A stretch of DNA of 34,051 bases from a virus, in the IMG/VR virus record IMGVR_UViG_3300010160_000137, positions 1-34,051 of that record, one strand, 5' to 3'. The notes under the pieces are model-generated. The model ran no database searches. It was given only the letters and a program-made list of their open reading frames with translations, and was not told the DNA's origin. The position numbers were made by a program, and so were the translations under genes. Positions 2,475 to 20,966 of this stretch are shown here, piece after piece; position 1 is the first letter of the stretch; every line of letters begins with the position of its first letter.

Positions 2475-3269
2475 ATAAAATGTCAAAAACATATTTTTTA
2501 TATTATAAAATAATGTAATTTATATTTTTTTTGGATAGTAAATTGATATTATTAAAATGTGTTTTAAGTCAGTGAATAAGCAGGTATTCACTAAAAGGCT
2601 ATTATAGCCTAAAACTGCTGTCTAAATCTGACAAAAACCGAACTATTTATTTCTCTTCTTTCATTTCGTTCTCGTATATGCAATTTGTCCTATTTATATT
2701 ACCTGAACCCAAGTACTAGGGTACTAATTTTAATAAAATAGGGGATAGGGATCAACTTGTCTCGTTAAAAAGATTAAAGAAGATGGATTTGATGCGTTTA
2801 GTTCTAGTTTTTAATCTAACTGGGACAAATTGCATAACAACCTAATTTGTGTCAATTATTTATTATATTTAAATAACTGATTATTAGCTTATTATGTCAA
2901 TTTCCAGACAAAAACCGAACCAATTATTGCATTATCCATATTTCAGACGAGTAAATCCTGACAAAAACCGAACTAAAAAAATTCGTCGCAACAAAATCTT
3001 TTTTTAAGAGGATGATTCTTTTTAAAAAAGCCCATTTAAAACCTATTTTACTATTCAACCCTAAATACTTTTTATCTTTGATTATATTTGTTATAATCAA
3101 TTGATATTTGTACTTGTGCATTATGCATTATAAATCAATGCTTTATAGAGGTTTTATCTGACAAAAACCGAACTAATTCCCGACAAAAACCGAACTAAGT
3201 TCTGACAAAAACCGAACTAATTCCCGACAAAAACCGAACTAAGTTCTCGCGTTCCTGACAAAAACCGAA
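2475..3269. other. Plasmid origin region, non-coding and AT-rich
   Basis: This 795-bp stretch between the par operon and the Rep stop codon has no convincing gene. A leftward 65-codon reading frame at 2924-3121 runs across iterons and is not credible. It holds eight iterons, a 14-bp long-distance inverted repeat and very AT-rich segments that could serve as an unwinding element. Its position next to a Rep_3 initiator gene marks it as the likely plasmid replication origin. Confidence 0.75.
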
Positions 3270-3272
3270 CTA
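2630..3272 (+). repeat. Iterons: eight copies of GACAAAAACCGAACTA
   Basis: The 16-bp repeat GACAAAAACCGAACTA starts at 2630, 2907 (ends CCA instead of CTA), 2960, 3160, 3182, 3204, 3226 and 3257. Copies 4 to 7 are spaced exactly 22 bp, about two helical turns, and the last copy overlaps the rep stop codon. Spacers in the tight array alternate between ATTCCC and AGTTCT, giving a 44-bp higher-order unit. All copies point the same way. This is the classic form of an iteron origin bound by a Rep_3/RepA-type initiator for initiation and copy control. Confidence 0.92.
2677..2836. repeat. 14-bp inverted repeat flanking a 132-bp segment in the origin
   Basis: TATGCAATTTGTCC at 2677-2690 is the exact reverse complement of GGACAAATTGCATA at 2823-2836. 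A nested pair GATTAAA/TTTAATC lies inside. The enclosed segment has no gene. It could be a replication or plasmid control element, a transcribed hairpin or a protein-binding pair. No function was recognised. Confidence 0.5.
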
Positions 3273-4325
3273 TTTATTGCCAAATTCATTTAGCAGGGCT
3301 GCTAAGGCAAAATGTCTAGGGCTTTTCACTTTATCGTCGGTTAACCCCTTCTTGTAGATCTGCTCTTCAATAAATAGAATTTTATGGATGATATCGCGCT
3401 GATTGATCTCTTTGTTATGAAGAACATGATTAATATCTTCAATATCCTTAGGTTGAAACTTAAAGTTAGTCCGAAGCATATTTCTTATATAATTCGCCCT
3501 TTCATCCATTTCTTTAAAAAGCTCTGGGGTTATCACTTTAAAGCATAGCATCACAGGTTTATTTCTTTTTTTCTCAACGAAACTTTTTACTGTACAATCA
3601 AACCAGCAATCACCTATTTCTTTTAACTCATTCATCACTGGGATTAAAACCCTTCTTTTAAAATCTGAGTATTCACTATACATGGAAGTAAGGCATAAAT
3701 CCGCCCTGAGTTCATCTAATGATATTTTAAACTCTCCTTTCTTTTTCCAAGAACAGAGAAGCTTATAGATTGTAGGCGTGAACTTACAGGTGGCGTTTTG
3801 TGACACTTCATATGCATGTCTCGTATAATTCTTCGGCGTACCATCAGCGTCCCTGTCTATTTTTATCAGAATATCAGCCACCCTTTTTTCTATTTCAATA
3901 ACCATTACAGAACTTCTTTTAGAGCTAATTTCTAGATCAGCTCTAATTAGCCCCGTGATTCGCTCCATATCTTTCCCTTCTTTCGAGATGTATGGAACAG
4001 CAACGACAATAGAAGCCAGTCGCTTAATATTTTCACGAATTTCTTGATACTGCCTCGGCTTGCCAATATCGCTCATGGGTATAGCCAGTTTAATCAAGTC
4101 TGGATTTGAAAATATTTCTAATTGATTATAGAGGTGCCCTTTCATTGCCAAATGAATAGGCTCCTGTAAGTAATACATGATTGCTGTCAGTATTTTATGC
4201 TGGATCAACGTATAACCACCTACATCGGCACCGAATCGGCTTTTGGTAACACGATTTGGCTGCACAATGTAATTTCGAATTTGTGGCAATACGATTCTTT
4301 TGGGTTTCTTAGGTAGTTTTTCCAT
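3270..4325 (-). CDS. Rep_3-family plasmid replication initiator
   Basis: The 351-residue protein resembles the Initiator Replication protein (Rep_3, RepB/RepE-like) family. An N-terminal winged-helix region (residues about 30-190) includes a long helix, GYTLIQHKILTAIMYYLQE. A second winged helix follows with the typical segment YKLLCSWKKKGEFKISLDEL, then a basic region with DFKRRVLIPVMNELKEI. Such initiators bind iterons as monomers and open the origin, while dimers repress their own gene. The gene ends inside the last of eight iterons, so it reads toward its origin. It starts 2 bp after the resolvase stop on the same strand, suggesting co-transcription with the resolvase. Confidence 0.88.
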   Translation of the reverse strand: MEKLPKKPKRIVLPQIRNYIVQPNRVTKSRFGADVGGYTLIQHKILTAIMYYLQEPIHLAMKGHLYNQLEIFSNPDLIKLAIPMSDIGKPRQYQEIRENIKRLASIVVAVPYISKEGKDMERITGLIRADLEISSKRSSVMVIEIEKRVADILIKIDRDADGTPKNYTRHAYEVSQNATCKFTPTIYKLLCSWKKKGEFKISLDELRADLCLTSMYSEYSDFKRRVLIPVMNELKEIGDCWFDCTVKSFVEKKRNKPVMLCFKVITPELFKEMDERANYIRNMLRTNFKFQPKDIEDINHVLHNKEINQRDIIHKILFIEEQIYKKGLTDDKVKSPRHFALAALLNEFGNK

Positions 4326-5040: not shown

Positions 5041-5079
5041 AACATAGCAATTGAAAATATTTGGCTAACTTTGTATTCA

Positions 5080-5361
5080 ATGGACTTGACAAAACTATCT
5101 GACGCATCAGATCAGCTTGATGAGAAAAACAAGAAAGCGATCCTTGATGTGATCAATCTAAAAGTAGAAGACGATATGAAAGATGTACTAACTAAAATGG
5201 ATAGCATGTTTGCCAGATTTGAAACCAGATTCGAGCATATGGAAGGTAAATTTGCCCAAATAGATAGCAAGTTTACACATGTAGAAGATAAAATATCTAC
5301 CCTCTACTGGGTTGTTGGCCTCTCTACTGCACTAATAGCTATCTTCATAGCACTAAAATAA
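5080..5361 (+). CDS. Small coiled-coil protein with a C-terminal membrane anchor
   Basis: The predicted protein has 93 residues starting at ATG 5080. An in-frame TTG at 5071 is rejected because it lies in a TAnnTTTG promoter box (TAACTTTG, 5066-5073). The N-terminal half (LDEKNKKAILDVINLKVEDDM) is helical, then heptad-like repeats with FETRFEHMEGKFAQ and FTHVEDKIS lead into a single membrane segment, LYWVVGLSTALIAIFIALK, at the very end. A paralogue sits at 15626-15853. The layout recalls membrane-anchored coiled-coil proteins of the Bdr/DUF1640 kind, but no family is confirmed. With the promoter box 6 bp before ATG the mRNA may be almost leaderless. Function unknown. Confidence 0.7.
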   Translation: MDLTKLSDASDQLDEKNKKAILDVINLKVEDDMKDVLTKMDSMFARFETRFEHMEGKFAQIDSKFTHVEDKISTLYWVVGLSTALIAIFIALK

Positions 5362-8484: not shown

Positions 8485-8766
8485 ATGCCCACGAACAAGA
8501 ATATAATGACGGAAGAAGAGCAGTCAGTAGAGCTGCAAAAACAGGAAGTCAGTGACCCTTTATACGATGCCATAAGCGAAGCACTCGCAGAAGACTCTAA
8601 AAGGCCGAATAAGCTTTCTGCAAGCGCGATAAACAAGATTGTAGAAGGACGAAAACACGAAACTGAAGACCCCCTATACGATGGGATATCAAAAGCATTG
8701 GCAGACTTTCATCTGTCAGAAAACCTGAACCCCGAAGTAATCGGATTTTCGATCAACAAAAATTAA
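8485..8766 (+). CDS. Hypothetical acidic protein with an internal duplicate (DPLYDxISxALA)
   Basis: The protein has 93 residues. Its notable feature is an internal repeat: DPLYDAISEALA at residues 24-35 and DPLYDGISKALA at 62-73, separated by 38 residues. The repeats may be two short helices that dock onto a partner. A second ATG eight codons in (8506) could also be the start. The last codons overlap the left end of the 392-bp tandem duplication that follows. No family was recognised. Confidence 0.55.
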   Translation: MPTNKNIMTEEEQSVELQKQEVSDPLYDAISEALAEDSKRPNKLSASAINKIVEGRKHETEDPLYDGISKALADFHLSENLNPEVIGFSINKN

Positions 8767-8778
8767 CTGAAAAATAAA

Positions 8779-8809
8779 TTTGCAAGCATTAAGGAAATTT
8801 GTATGTTTG
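8779..8809 (+). promoter_or_regulatory. Bacteroidota promoter TTTG-N19-TATGTTTG, copy 1
   Basis: The -33 element TTTG is at 8779-8782 and the -7 element TATGTTTG at 8802-8809, with 19 bp between. This is an exact match to the known Bacteroidota primary-sigma consensus TTTG / TAnnTTTG. Transcription would start a few bases after 8809, close to the 5' strand of the first RNA helix at 8814. Confidence 0.85.
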
Positions 8810-8813
8810 AACT

Positions 8814-8930
8814 GTGTAAACAGTTGGAGGAATCCAACGCAAATTTTCTTAATCAAAACATAACGTTCAGGCGATAGGGTGGAAGTCCCTCAAACCTCGA
8901 TTCTTCGACTGTTTACACGGCGACCTGAAC
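8814..8930 (+). ncRNA. Structured leader RNA with an H-type pseudoknot, copy 1
   Basis: Helices read directly: Pa GTGTAAACAG (8814-8823) with CTGTTTACAC (8909-8918), 10 bp; Pb hairpin TTGGA-GGAA-TCCAA (8824-8837) with a GNRA-type loop; Pc GTTCAGG (8865-8871) with CCTGAAC (8924-8930); Pd AGGG (8876-8879) with CCCT (8887-8890). The order Pa5'-Pb-Pc5'-Pd-Pa3'-Pc3' is an H-type pseudoknot. The predicted transcript 5' end falls at Pa. It ends 23 nt before ATG 8954, suggesting a cis-regulatory leader or processed small RNA. The second copy supports the pairing by compensatory changes. No known RNA family was recognised. Confidence 0.75.
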
Positions 8931-8953
8931 ATTCATTTAGAAAATTTACCCGC

Positions 8954-9169
8954 ATGAAAAACACCCTTCGAAGCCATCAAACCAGCGCAAAGAAAACGCA
9001 TCAATTTAAACTTGATTTAAACGCCAATACAGACAAATACCGCGGTGAAGCTACCTTTAACGTGGCCATTAAAAACGCAAGCGATCCGTTTTTTAGAAAA
9101 ATATTGAATATGCTTTTTAAGCTTAAGAGTGGCGTGGAGAATGGCCAATTGCAATTAACCGAAAAATAA
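8954..9169 (+). CDS. Small basic protein behind the structured leader, copy 1 (71 aa)
   Basis: The start is ATG 8954. A GTG at 8879 in the same frame lies inside the Pd hairpin and is rejected. The protein begins MKNTLRSHQTSAKKTHQFKL and continues with a beta-like segment (GEATFNVAIKNASDPFF) and a helix (RKILNMLFKLKSG). The C-terminal QLQLTEK runs across the duplication junction and is missing from copy 2. The basic N-terminus could bind nucleic acid, perhaps its own leader. No family was recognised, but the 96%-level match between copies implies a constrained product. Confidence 0.7.
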   Translation: MKNTLRSHQTSAKKTHQFKLDLNANTDKYRGEATFNVAIKNASDPFFRKILNMLFKLKSGVENGQLQLTEK

Positions 9170-9170
9170 A

Positions 9171-9201
9171 TTTGCAAGCATTAAGAAAATTTGTATGTTT
9201 G
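9171..9201 (+). promoter_or_regulatory. Bacteroidota promoter TTTG-N19-TATGTTTG, copy 2
   Basis: TTTG is at 9171-9174 and TATGTTTG at 9194-9201, spacing 19 bp, identical in form to copy 1. It begins two bases after the copy 1 stop codon. A DNA inverted repeat (TTAAGAAAATTT / AAATTTTCTTAA) spans from between the two elements to the leader, in both copies, and might be an operator. Confidence 0.85.
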
Positions 9202-9205
9202 AAAC

Positions 9206-9319
9206 GCTATATAGCTGGACAAATCCAGCGAAAATTTTCTTAAAAAATATAAAGCTCAGGCGATGGGATGCAAGTGCCCATATTCCTCGATTTTTCGGCT
9301 ATATAGCAGCGACCTGAGC
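9206..9319 (+). ncRNA. Structured leader RNA with an H-type pseudoknot, copy 2
   Basis: The same fold as copy 1 with different stem sequences: Pa GCTATATAGC (9206-9215) with GCTATATAGC (9298-9307); Pb TGGA-CAAA-TCCA (9216-9227), extended by GC/GC that overlaps Pa; Pc GCTCAGG (9254-9260) with CCTGAGC (9313-9319); Pd ATGGG (9263-9267) with CCCAT (9277-9281). Eight of ten Pa positions differ from copy 1 and the opposite strand differs to match. Unpaired stretches such as CCTCGATT and GCGA before Pc3' are conserved. This is strong evidence that the structure is selected. Confidence 0.75.
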
Positions 9320-9358
9320 ACTCATTTTAGGCTATTATATTTTAGAAAATTTATCCGC

Positions 9359-9556
9359 ATGAAAAACACCCTTCGAAGCCATCAAACCAGCGCAAAGAAA
9401 ACGCATCAATTTAAACTTGATTTAAACGCCAATACGGACAAATACAGCGGTGAAGCTACTTTTAGCGTCGCCATTAAAAACGCGAGCGATCCGTTTTTTA
9501 GAAAAATATTGAATATGCTTTTTAAACTTAAGAGTGGCGTGGAGAATGGGAATTAA
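9359..9556 (+). CDS. Small basic protein behind the structured leader, copy 2 (65 aa)
   Basis: The start is ATG 9359. The product is nearly identical to copy 1, with Arg-to-Ser (NTDKYSGEA) and Asn-to-Ser (TFSVAIKN) changes and an earlier end at SGVENGN. A longer in-frame start at 9263 lies inside the RNA fold and is rejected. A strong terminator follows 10 bp after the stop, so the pair of units forms a closed transcription block. Function unknown. Confidence 0.7.
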   Translation: MKNTLRSHQTSAKKTHQFKLDLNANTDKYSGEATFSVAIKNASDPFFRKILNMLFKLKSGVENGN

Positions 9557-9565
9557 GCAAAAAAA

Positions 9566-9585
9566 AAGAGGACGGCAATCCTCTT
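9566..9585. terminator. Intrinsic terminator after the duplicated unit
   Basis: A perfect 7-bp hairpin AAGAGGA-CGGCAA-TCCTCTT is preceded by a run of A (9559-9567) and followed by a modest T/C-rich tail. It sits just after the copy 2 stop codon. The A-run on the left could make it bidirectional. Confidence 0.7.
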
Positions 9586-9896
9586 CTTAAAATTTTCTTC
9601 CAAAAGAAACAATCAAATAACCGAACATTAAAATGGACGACTAAAATGATGATCAAAATATTTAAAAACGAATATTTATGACTAAACAAAACTACAAAAC
9701 GTATATCTATTTTTCTAAAAAAAGTAAAAATAAATACCTGAACAGCAGCTGAACCAATCACCTACCACTTCCTTACAAGAAGCTGAATTTTAAAACATTA
9801 ACGTATTAAACAACCAAAATGGCCCGTATTAAGGCCCAATGGGTAATTTTTGCCTAAAAATTTCACCGATTAATCAAATTTTAAACATAAAAACAC
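9586..9896. other. Intergenic region before the replication gene
   Basis: This 311-bp AT-rich stretch has no credible gene. The leftward 77-codon frame at 9528-9761 crosses the terminator and is rejected. A TAATTTTTG box at 9844-9852, 45 bp before the next ATG, resembles a -7 element with one extra base but lacks a good -33 partner. GGCCC occurs twice nearby (9822-9840). Nothing more definite was seen. Confidence 0.4.
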
Positions 9897-15625: not shown

Positions 15626-15853
15626 CTATTTCAAAGCCAGAATAGCCAATAGGATCGTTATTATTGATCCAGCAGCAATTATCACCCAACGCGTAGTGAT
15701 AATACTTTCCTCCATATGGGCAAACTTTGCGTCCATCTTTCCTAAAATCTTTTCCATATCGTCCTCTATTTTTAGGTCTATTAATTGAAGAATAGCAGAA
15801 CGATTCTGTTCGTCCAACCCATTCGCTATACTGTTTGAATCGTTCAACTTCAT
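15626..15853 (-). CDS. Small coiled-coil membrane-anchored protein, paralogue of 5080-5361
   Basis: The 75-residue protein has LDEQNRSAILQLIDLKIEDD and MEKILGKMDAKFAHMEESI, aligning with LDEKNKKAILDVINLKVEDD and its flank in the 5080 gene. It then ends in one membrane helix, WVIIAAGSIITILLAILALK. It lacks about 18 residues of the longer coiled coil. Its upstream promoter box on this strand, TATTTTTG (15861-15868), is 7 bp before ATG, the same spacing as in the paralogue. It is the only leftward gene here, lying back to back with the late promoter. An overlapping frame at 15621 is rejected because of this homology. Confidence 0.65.
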   Translation of the reverse strand: MKLNDSNSIANGLDEQNRSAILQLIDLKIEDDMEKILGKMDAKFAHMEESIITTRWVIIAAGSIITILLAILALK

Positions 15854-19406: not shown

Positions 19407-19459
19407 TAGTATTTAATAATTCGAGTATTCCACTTCCCCTTGCTGAATTTTATAAAACA

Positions 19460-19556
19460 AATGTCTAAAATTTTGCACATTTAATAAATAATTGTATATT
19501 TGAATATACCAATTAGAAGAGCGGTGCAGCTCTATAAACTCTGCGACAAAATCATG
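19460..19556 (+). promoter_or_regulatory. Promoter-leader module, plus-strand copy (TTTG-N19-TATATTTG)
   Basis: This 97-bp block matches the minus-strand block 20849-20945 at about 87 of 97 positions. It contains TTTG (19472-19475), a 19-bp spacer and TATATTTG (19495-19502), then a leader of about 50 nt with a small hairpin AGAGC-GGTGCA-GCTCT (19518-19533) and ends in ATG (19554). An apparent TTG start at 19500 falls in the -7 element and cannot be translated from this promoter. Confidence 0.82.
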
Positions 19557-20467: not shown

Positions 20468-20851
20468 CTATATGTTTATTTGACTCATATATAATTTTCT
20501 TTCTGCTCTTTTTTTTCGGGCAGCACTACCCCGCTCATGCTTCTCATCTAGTTGAAATTTGCGCTTATATTCATCTGCCCAAATTTTACGAAAGGTCCCA
20601 TTTCTATATAAATTTCTTCCTTTAATTCGAATAGTCGAGCCATCTCCTAGATCAATTGTGAATGTGTGTTGCTGTTTATCTTTTCCGTAACTGTCTTTAA
20701 TTATTTTTCCTATAACTCGTTCAGTTCCTTCAAATTTGGGATTTCTGTATGAGCCAGAAAAAGTATCTCTCTCAAAACAAACCTCATCCCCAACAACGAC
20801 GTCGCCTGTGCAATCAATTACAAATAATTCGTTTTCTGTGTGTGTTCCCAT
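20468..20851 (-). CDS. Hypothetical protein, 127 residues, right arm of the mirror cassette
   Basis: The start is ATG at 20851, at the end of the shared leader. A longer frame from 20905 begins in the promoter's -7 box and is rejected. The N-terminal part is beta-rich (LFVIDCTGDVVVGDEVCFER, then TFTIDLGDGSTIRIKGRNLY), like a small SH3-type or phage lysis-control domain. The C-terminal 35 residues are very basic (IWADEYKRKFQLDEKHERGS, then RKKRAERKLY), suggesting nucleic-acid binding. No family was confirmed. Confidence 0.6.
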   Translation of the reverse strand: MGTHTENELFVIDCTGDVVVGDEVCFERDTFSGSYRNPKFEGTERVIGKIIKDSYGKDKQQHTFTIDLGDGSTIRIKGRNLYRNGTFRKIWADEYKRKFQLDEKHERGSAARKKRAERKLYMSQINI

Positions 20852-20945
20852 GATTTTTTTGCCGAGTTTATCGAGCTGCCCCGCTCTTCTAATTGGTATA
20901 TTCAAATATACAACTATTTACTAAATGTGCAAAATATTGTACATT
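20849..20945 (-). promoter_or_regulatory. Promoter-leader module, minus-strand copy (TTTG-N19-TATATTTG)
   Basis: Read on the minus strand, it has TTTG (20933-20930), 19 bp, then TATATTTG (20910-20903) and a leader with the GAGC-GGGGCA-GCTC hairpin before ATG 20851. It is an inverted copy of 19460-19556. Differences cluster upstream of the -33 element, in the spacer and near the ATG. The -7 element and first 23 leader bases are identical. Confidence 0.82.
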
Positions 20946-20966
20946 TTTTCTAAATAAATTAAAACA

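Follow-up and report, generated by a model that had tools for sequence, protein, structure and literature searches.

A duplicated pseudoknot-capable leader of a phage and its Bacteroidota relatives as candidate antisense RNAs with an exchangeable start-codon guide

In phages P1 and P7, the c4-icd-ant operon carries a structured RNA, C4, upstream of icd (73 aa) and the antirepressor gene (PMC12197685, PMC8198154). The C4 RNA of P1 blocks translation near the icd/ant ribosome binding site, and it differs between the heteroimmune P1 and P7 (PMC8198154, PMC12197685). The CI RNA of P4 is flanked by two copies of its target on the same transcript, seqA upstream and seqC downstream (PMC4825925). In the IsrK-orf45-anrP operon of Gifsy-1, a small RNA heads the operon and is partially read through, pairing alternatively with a small ORF that is followed by the antirepressor gene (PMC4825925). 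Other described RNAs include the radC motif (RF01754), found near radC, and the STAXI motif (Weinberg 2010), whose repeated pseudoknots lie close to c4 RNAs and to genes for DNA handling; the same survey lists C4-type immunity RNAs for Proteobacteria and phages (PMC2864571). According to a 2025 cyanobacterial report (PMC12390103), type I toxin-antitoxin systems had until then been known only from Proteobacteria, Firmicutes and Tenericutes.

Here we analyse a leader RNA that occurs twice in a complete IMG/VR virus record of 34,051 bases (the window, meaning the whole stretch of DNA analysed) and once or more in its relatives. In 51 of 70 family members, the two window copies not being among them, the RNA resembles C4 (RF01695) in its complementarity to the site where translation of the following ORF begins. 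As in the c4-a1b1 arrangement, a second target copy lies upstream, corresponding to the strand Pa5'. Neighbours that recall the C4 operon occur in a minority of members, with an AntA antirepressor gene after the small ORF in relative L296 and a downstream KilA-N gene in L294. Unlike C4, which is proteobacterial and has its own covariance model, the family RNA is found in Bacteroidota and has a pseudoknot-capable fold with one guide, whose target is locked to the AUG itself. The C4 covariance model gave no match at the gathering threshold in the window or in 20 homologue loci, and none up to E = 5 within positions 8700-9700. The family order of target copy, structured RNA and target equals seqA-CI-seqC of P4 (PMC4825925); CI, by contrast, terminates transcription of the replication operon, whereas the downstream target in the family is a start codon. 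The predicted operon-head position, read-through and alternative pairing with the following small ORF resemble IsrK-orf45-anrP, but IsrK activates translation in trans by freeing an inhibitory structure and has no duplicated target. In SymE/SymR, an antisense RNA blocks the start codon of a SymE-domain toxin (PMC4147584, PMC1891008), and the family RNA would likewise block start codons, those of SymE-like ORFs among them. SymR, however, lies on the opposite strand (PMC4147584), whereas the family RNA lies upstream of the ORF on the same strand in all members; moreover, the putative targets of the family fall into several classes, of which SymE is one, and the window ORFs are not SymE. Proximity to RadC-like genes, or repeated pseudoknots, is shared with the radC and STAXI motifs, of which the radC motif is listed for Proteobacteria; neither gave an Rfam match in the 20 homologue loci.

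Two tandem leader units in the window phage

The window encodes phage structural genes alongside a Rep3-type initiator, a ParA-like ATPase and a resolvase, and on this gene content the phage looks like a phage-plasmid. Adjoining the initiator gene are 22-bp direct repeats with GACAAAAACCGAACTA (positions 3157-3297, with more copies at 2625 and 2902), which are probable plasmid iterons and would support this assignment.

Two tandem units on the + strand each consist of a promoter-like TTTG...TATGTTTG element, a leader of ~120 nt and a small ORF, as the preliminary description had it. The promoters are spaced by 392 and the ORFs by 405, the difference being due to ~13-16 additional nt ahead of the ATG in unit 2. 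The putative promoter of unit 1 spans 8779..8809, with TTTG at -33 (8779-8782) and TATGTTTG at -7 (8802-8809), and that of unit 2 spans 9171..9201 (TTTG, 9171-9174; TATGTTTG, 9194-9201). Both were recognised by eye as the Bacteroidota type, TTTG/TAnnTTTG, and a sigma-70 promoter scan of the units gave nothing, as expected for this type. The promoter block is identical at 49/51 positions. The ORF blocks are near-identical, as had been noted (201/209), and the leaders differ far more (92/125), so that 74% identity in the leaders stands against 96% in the flanks (Fisher p = 3e-10).

ORF 1 (8954..9169, 71 aa) starts with ATGAAAAACACC and belongs to no family, and ORF 2 (9359..9556, 65 aa) is nearly identical to it. 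No Pfam or PHROG family and no SymE match was found for the window ORF, no relatives were found in the viral contigs or plasmids searched, and no related DNA was found in annotated phages or plasmids. The ORF just 5' of the units (8485-8763) contains an internal repeat (DPLYDAISEALAED / DPLYDGISKALAD) and matches no known family.

Both leaders carry a helix Pa, a hairpin Pb, two inner hairpins and a helix Pc. In unit 1, Pa5' (GTGTAAACAG, 8814..8823) is followed by Pb (TTGGA/TCCAA, 8824..8837) and Pc5' (GTTCAGG, 8865..8871). The two inner hairpins, AGGG-UGGAAGU-CCCU (8876..8890), with the loop UGNAAGU conserved in the family, and UCGA-UUCU-UCGA (8897..8908), then lead to Pa3' (CTGTTTACAC / CUGUUUACAC, 8909..8918), a conserved GCGA linker (8920-8923) directly 5' of Pc3', and Pc3' itself (CCTGAAC, 8924..8930), which is followed by a T-rich tract. 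In unit 2, the corresponding elements are Pa5' (GCTATATAGC, 9206..9215), Pb (TGGA/TCCA, 9216..9227), Pc5' (GCTCAGG, 9254..9260), the inner hairpins TGGG/CCCA (9264..9280) and TCGA/TCGG (9287..9298), Pa3' (GCTATATAGC / GCUAUAUAGC, 9298..9307) and Pc3' (CCTGAGC, 9313..9319). The Pa strand of unit 2 is a palindrome in its own right, reading GCTATATAGC on both strands. Since the strands follow one another as Pa5', Pc5', Pa3' and Pc3', Pa and Pc interleave and constitute a pseudoknot. Pa, Pb and Pc all keep their pairing through the stem changes between the units, with GTTCAGG/CCTGAAC of Pc becoming GCTCAGG/CCTGAGC, in agreement with the preliminary description.

Relatives of the leader and support for its helices

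A search against Rfam 15 revealed no known RNA family at the gathering threshold in the window or in the 20 homologue loci, and matches up to E = 5 within 8700-9700 were at chance level only. On comparative grounds, the two leaders are members of a previously uncatalogued RNA family of Bacteroidota phages and host genomes. A relative of the window's major capsid protein (60% identity) led to a contig, L002, that bears the same RNA at its end and gave the first sighting of it outside the window phage; a search with the replisome-organizer protein gave no viral relatives. DNA patterns derived from the conserved core brought the number of phages to three, with the addition of L048, and revealed multiple copies in a Pedobacter MAG. 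Three collection scans gave about 211 pattern matches, nearly all of them due to chance, of which only those passing a pairing filter were used. A covariance model built from 10 sequences then placed the RNA in 31 of 401 genomes of the family of the Pedobacter MAG, and a second model, built from 47 matches, in 43 of 401 genomes of the order and in 4 of 395 of a phylum sample. Altogether 70 matches were collected, the weakest few of which (e.g., L278 and L279) may not be real. In these counts from 2,000 sampled genomes the units are sequences rather than independent events, and the host taxonomy of relatives besides the Pedobacter MAG is indirect.

The folding energies of single sequences are not convincing alone (z = -1.6 and -1.5 for units 1 and 2), and the lone core folds no better than its shuffles (z = 0.69). 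Comparison among relatives is decisive. For 10 family members, 90.5% of the cells pair versus 75% in shuffles, and 17 pairs are changed on both sides versus 9. For 44 distinct members, in an alignment that favours Pa and the hairpins as it was fitted to them, 94.6% of the cells form standard pairs versus 73% in shuffles, and changes on both sides are seen in 28 of 30 pairs versus 17. Such changes affect nine of ten pairs in Pa and six of seven in Pc; as Pc lies outside the covariance model, its covariation is independent support. Sliding one partner by 1-3 columns abolishes the pairing signal. All five helices, including Pc, are supported by covariation across the alignment. The loops UGNAAGU and GCGA are conserved in the family, with modest loop conservation overall. 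The proposal that the stems diverge under a pairing constraint is thus strongly supported, and the drift of Pa or Pc without compensation that would have spoken against it is not the rule, since most homologues compensate.

Topologies of HDV-like ribozymes and group I introns, considered on account of the interleaved helices and GCGA, were discarded, for the P1 length, a missing P4 and the cores do not fit, and the guide-target match described below explains the strands better.

The guide strand and the start codon of the following gene

Further analysis of the relatives revealed a second partner for Pa3'. In 51 of the 70 members, Pa3' matches the start segment of the next ORF with at most one mismatch, and the match is perfect in 45 members, which carry 30 distinct guides. 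The target segment begins at the G of the AUG in all matching members, and the ATG lies ~12-27 nt past the RNA; in Pedobacter and phage relatives, for example, Pa3' CUCGUUCUGC stands against AUGCAGAACGAG. When guides are swapped among members, only 5.5% of the combinations are near-perfect and 0.5% perfect. The summed pairing score, taken from the best duplex within the downstream 110 nt, is 1541 versus 960 +/- 25 in 5000 permutations (maximum 1069). The covariance model had fixed the position of Pa3' with no reference to the ORF, which makes the match an independent observation. It also accounts for the divergence of Pa in most homologues, since Pa3' must match the start codon of the following ORF as well; the preliminary description had named the pairing constraint and missed this second one. 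Its suggestion that copies of a riboregulator differ in specificity is strongly supported.

Upstream of the RNA core, the target is duplicated in the strand Pa5'. Among the 45 members with a perfect match, Pa5' pairs with the guide less strongly than the start-codon copy does in 27 and equally well in 18, and it is the stronger partner in none; where weaker, it usually differs by one G-U pair. That Pa5' is never the stronger partner would be unexpected if Pa alone were selected. The pairings Pa5':guide and guide:target are each compatible with Pc, and each gives an H-type pseudoknot with it. Nested folding puts the two near balance, with 22 members favouring Pa5':guide and 18 favouring guide:target. 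In the 9 nt after Pc, the T content reaches 58% versus a background of 28%. A hand count gave no significant support to the idea that guides within one genome avoid each other, since guides shared between genomes are too few for a deficit to reach significance. In three members without a start-codon target (L303, L293 and L292), a partial guide match of the CTGCGAA type lies ~45 nt downstream inside the ORF and is perhaps a displaced target.

Compared to these relatives, the window copies are atypical. The ORFs of relatives read ATG-(9 nt)-AAAAA..., whereas both window ORFs begin with ATGAAAAACACC and lack the target segment. Pa is fully paired in both copies, yet different between them, so that the window phage would carry two specificities if Pa3' serves as a guide here as it does, by comparison, in the homologues. 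For the guide of unit 1, CUGUUUACAC, the expected target is GUGUAAACAG; the rest of the window has no perfect target for either guide. In IMG/VR, the start-codon segment expected for guide 1 occurs at 13 places, which were taken as chance, as most read into a stop at once and none adjoins a family RNA. Either the window copies act only on other genomes, or their ORFs recently escaped control with the leaders still intact; near-identity of the ORF blocks without identity of the leaders fits a recent spread of a target-less ORF. In the window copies, the linker AAATTTTCTTAA (8841-8856) can form a helix with the T/A-rich sequence that precedes the ATG (8932-8947), and in copy 2 the extra 16 nt lengthen the corresponding pairing (9232-9251 with 9333-9352) to about 20 nt; this pairing may substitute for the missing one at the start codon.

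Four copies without an ORF (L300:9008, L308, L300:8852 and L310) have kept Pc, the hairpins and the guide, and have lost Pa5' and Pb. Two of them, L300:9008 and L308, are homologous with common flanks, and Pa5' and Pb have decayed in both. Their identity is 63/65 in the core, compared to 45/56 in the 5' part and 27/36 downstream (Fisher p = 0.006 against the 5' part and 0.0008 against both flanks), and thus core and guide are preferentially conserved in this lineage. In this class the Pa helix is apparently dispensable. The guide of L300:9008 and L308, CGTGTGTCGC, is the exact complement of a symE start in L263:7129, and that of L300:8852, CGACGTTCGC, is the complement of the start of a symE-like ORF in L297. 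These matches are suggestive of targets at other loci rather than proof: there are only two, they share the prefix GCGA/GCGAAC, and L300:9008 and L263:7129 are homologous, so that chance or common descent could also explain them.

Among 58 downstream ORFs, 15 are SymE-like and 10 RadC-like, with representatives passing the Pfam cut-offs of SymE_toxin and RadC, and others are short and lie in phage-like contexts. In L184 and L152 the next gene encodes a BT4734-like primase, and a HEPN gene overlaps the small ORF in L284. In addition to the AntA gene of L296 and the downstream KilA-N gene of L294, a KilA-N gene lies upstream of the RNA in the L002 phage; such antirepressor-type neighbours are absent in most members. 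The RNA accompanies about a third of the SymE loci in 22 genomes (about 11 of 33 places). By analogy, the putatively regulated genes are of the kinds that RNA silencers control. On the minus strand of L184 and L152, there are tandem RNA-ORF units in which the reading frame of the upstream ORF continues without a stop across the following RNA and on into the following ORF (246, 155 and 150 codons).

Possible modes of action

We consider it fairly probable that the leader is a modular structured antisense RNA with an exchangeable 10-nt guide, working like C4 of P1, CI of P4 and type I antitoxins. The core closed by Pc, comprising Pc and the two hairpins, would display the guide just 5' of the conserved GCGA linker, and the guide would pair with the mRNA segment from the G of the AUG and block the initiation of translation. 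Meanwhile Pa5', the upstream duplicate of the target, would act as a weak decoy that holds the guide in a competing helix of equal or lesser strength. The T-rich tract directly after Pc suggests termination there, such that much of the transcript would end as a small RNA and the read-through product would serve as the mRNA. The small RNA, or a core released from it, could silence matching mRNAs of its own locus or of an incoming relative. Divergence of Pa with the target kept matched would then represent a change of specificity, as in the C4 RNAs of the heteroimmune P1 and P7, and the window copies, whose own ORFs lack the target, would act only on other mRNAs unless these ORFs have escaped control. 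Action in trans, for which the conserved cores of the ORF-less copies give indirect support, is inferred here, as are transcription, termination after Pc, the translational block and a role in immunity.

The main rival of this antisense model, which we hold to be somewhat unlikely, is a leader switch acting purely in cis, in which the guide would pair either with Pa5', leaving the gene on, or with the start codon, turning it off. A ligand, a protein or the pace of transcription and translation would set the choice, much as in a riboswitch or kinetic attenuator. Such pairing could operate in cis alone, without any small RNA, and the position of the RNA directly upstream of an ORF in nearly all members, the H-type pseudoknot formed with Pc in both alternatives, the near balance of the two states and the conserved loops such as UGNAAGU and GCGA all fit such a switch. 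It cannot explain, however, the ORF-less copies that retain core and guide without Pa5', and the mutually unrelated target genes make a metabolite sensor unlikely, as does the modest loop conservation; a metabolite riboswitch as such was rejected on the same two observations. An unlikely reading is that of a type I toxin-antitoxin family proper, with the RNA as antitoxin and every downstream ORF as toxin. The ORF-less copies would then be retained antitoxins, and both the share of SymE-like ORFs, with representatives above the SymE_toxin cut-off, and the coupling of one ORF to a HEPN-domain gene agree with it, but many ORFs are RadC-like or of no known family, and in the sampled family only about a third of the SymE places have the RNA.

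An autoregulatory leader recognised by its own small protein or by some other phage protein, as considered in the preliminary description, is very unlikely. A structured pseudoknot adjoining a small basic ORF would suit it; nevertheless, the RNA stays constant while the proteins downstream are unrelated from locus to locus (SymE, RadC-like, phage ORFs), and Pa, the most variable part, tracks the start codon rather than the protein. Direct repeats of ~10 nt flank the RNA in most members, as would be left by an inserted mobile RNA element whose target-site duplication comprises Pa5' and the start-codon segment. Such an origin is strongly disfavoured and extremely improbable, for the internal guide is complementary to the repeat and changes along with it, the repeat is always in AUG register, the upstream promoter belongs to the family and there is no transposase.

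An extension of the antisense model, possible but doubtful, would see programmable start-codon silencers, each made of decoy, guide and target, throughout Bacteroidota. The units would duplicate, guide and target would change together and thereby shift the specificity of immunity or of an antitoxin, and the ORF-less guide cores left behind would shield hosts or prophages from foreign alleles of early phage genes and of SymE-type toxins, with the window phage carrying two guides for targets that it no longer has itself. If the antisense reading is true, a Bacteroidota family directed at phages, SymE and RadC-like genes would widen the ranges of C4-type and type I systems, and an RNA family absent from Rfam 15 would have a readable targeting code, in which three copies of one 10-mer (decoy, complement and target) covary across 30 guides. 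Because each guide is simply a 10-mer in a constant position, pairs of silencer and start codon would be predictable from their sequence.

Two further pairs of related elements lie in the window. Two small coiled-coil-like proteins with a C-terminal hydrophobic stretch, related to each other, are encoded on opposite strands at 5071-5361 (+) and 15626-15853 (-). A second duplicated leader is present as 109-nt inverted copies at 19448-19556 (+) and 20849-20957 (-) that are 87% identical; each has a TTG...TATATTTG promoter-like element, a GAGC-GGNGCA-GCTC hairpin and the start codon of an ORF, the two ORFs being unrelated, and the pair is possibly another RNA regulator.
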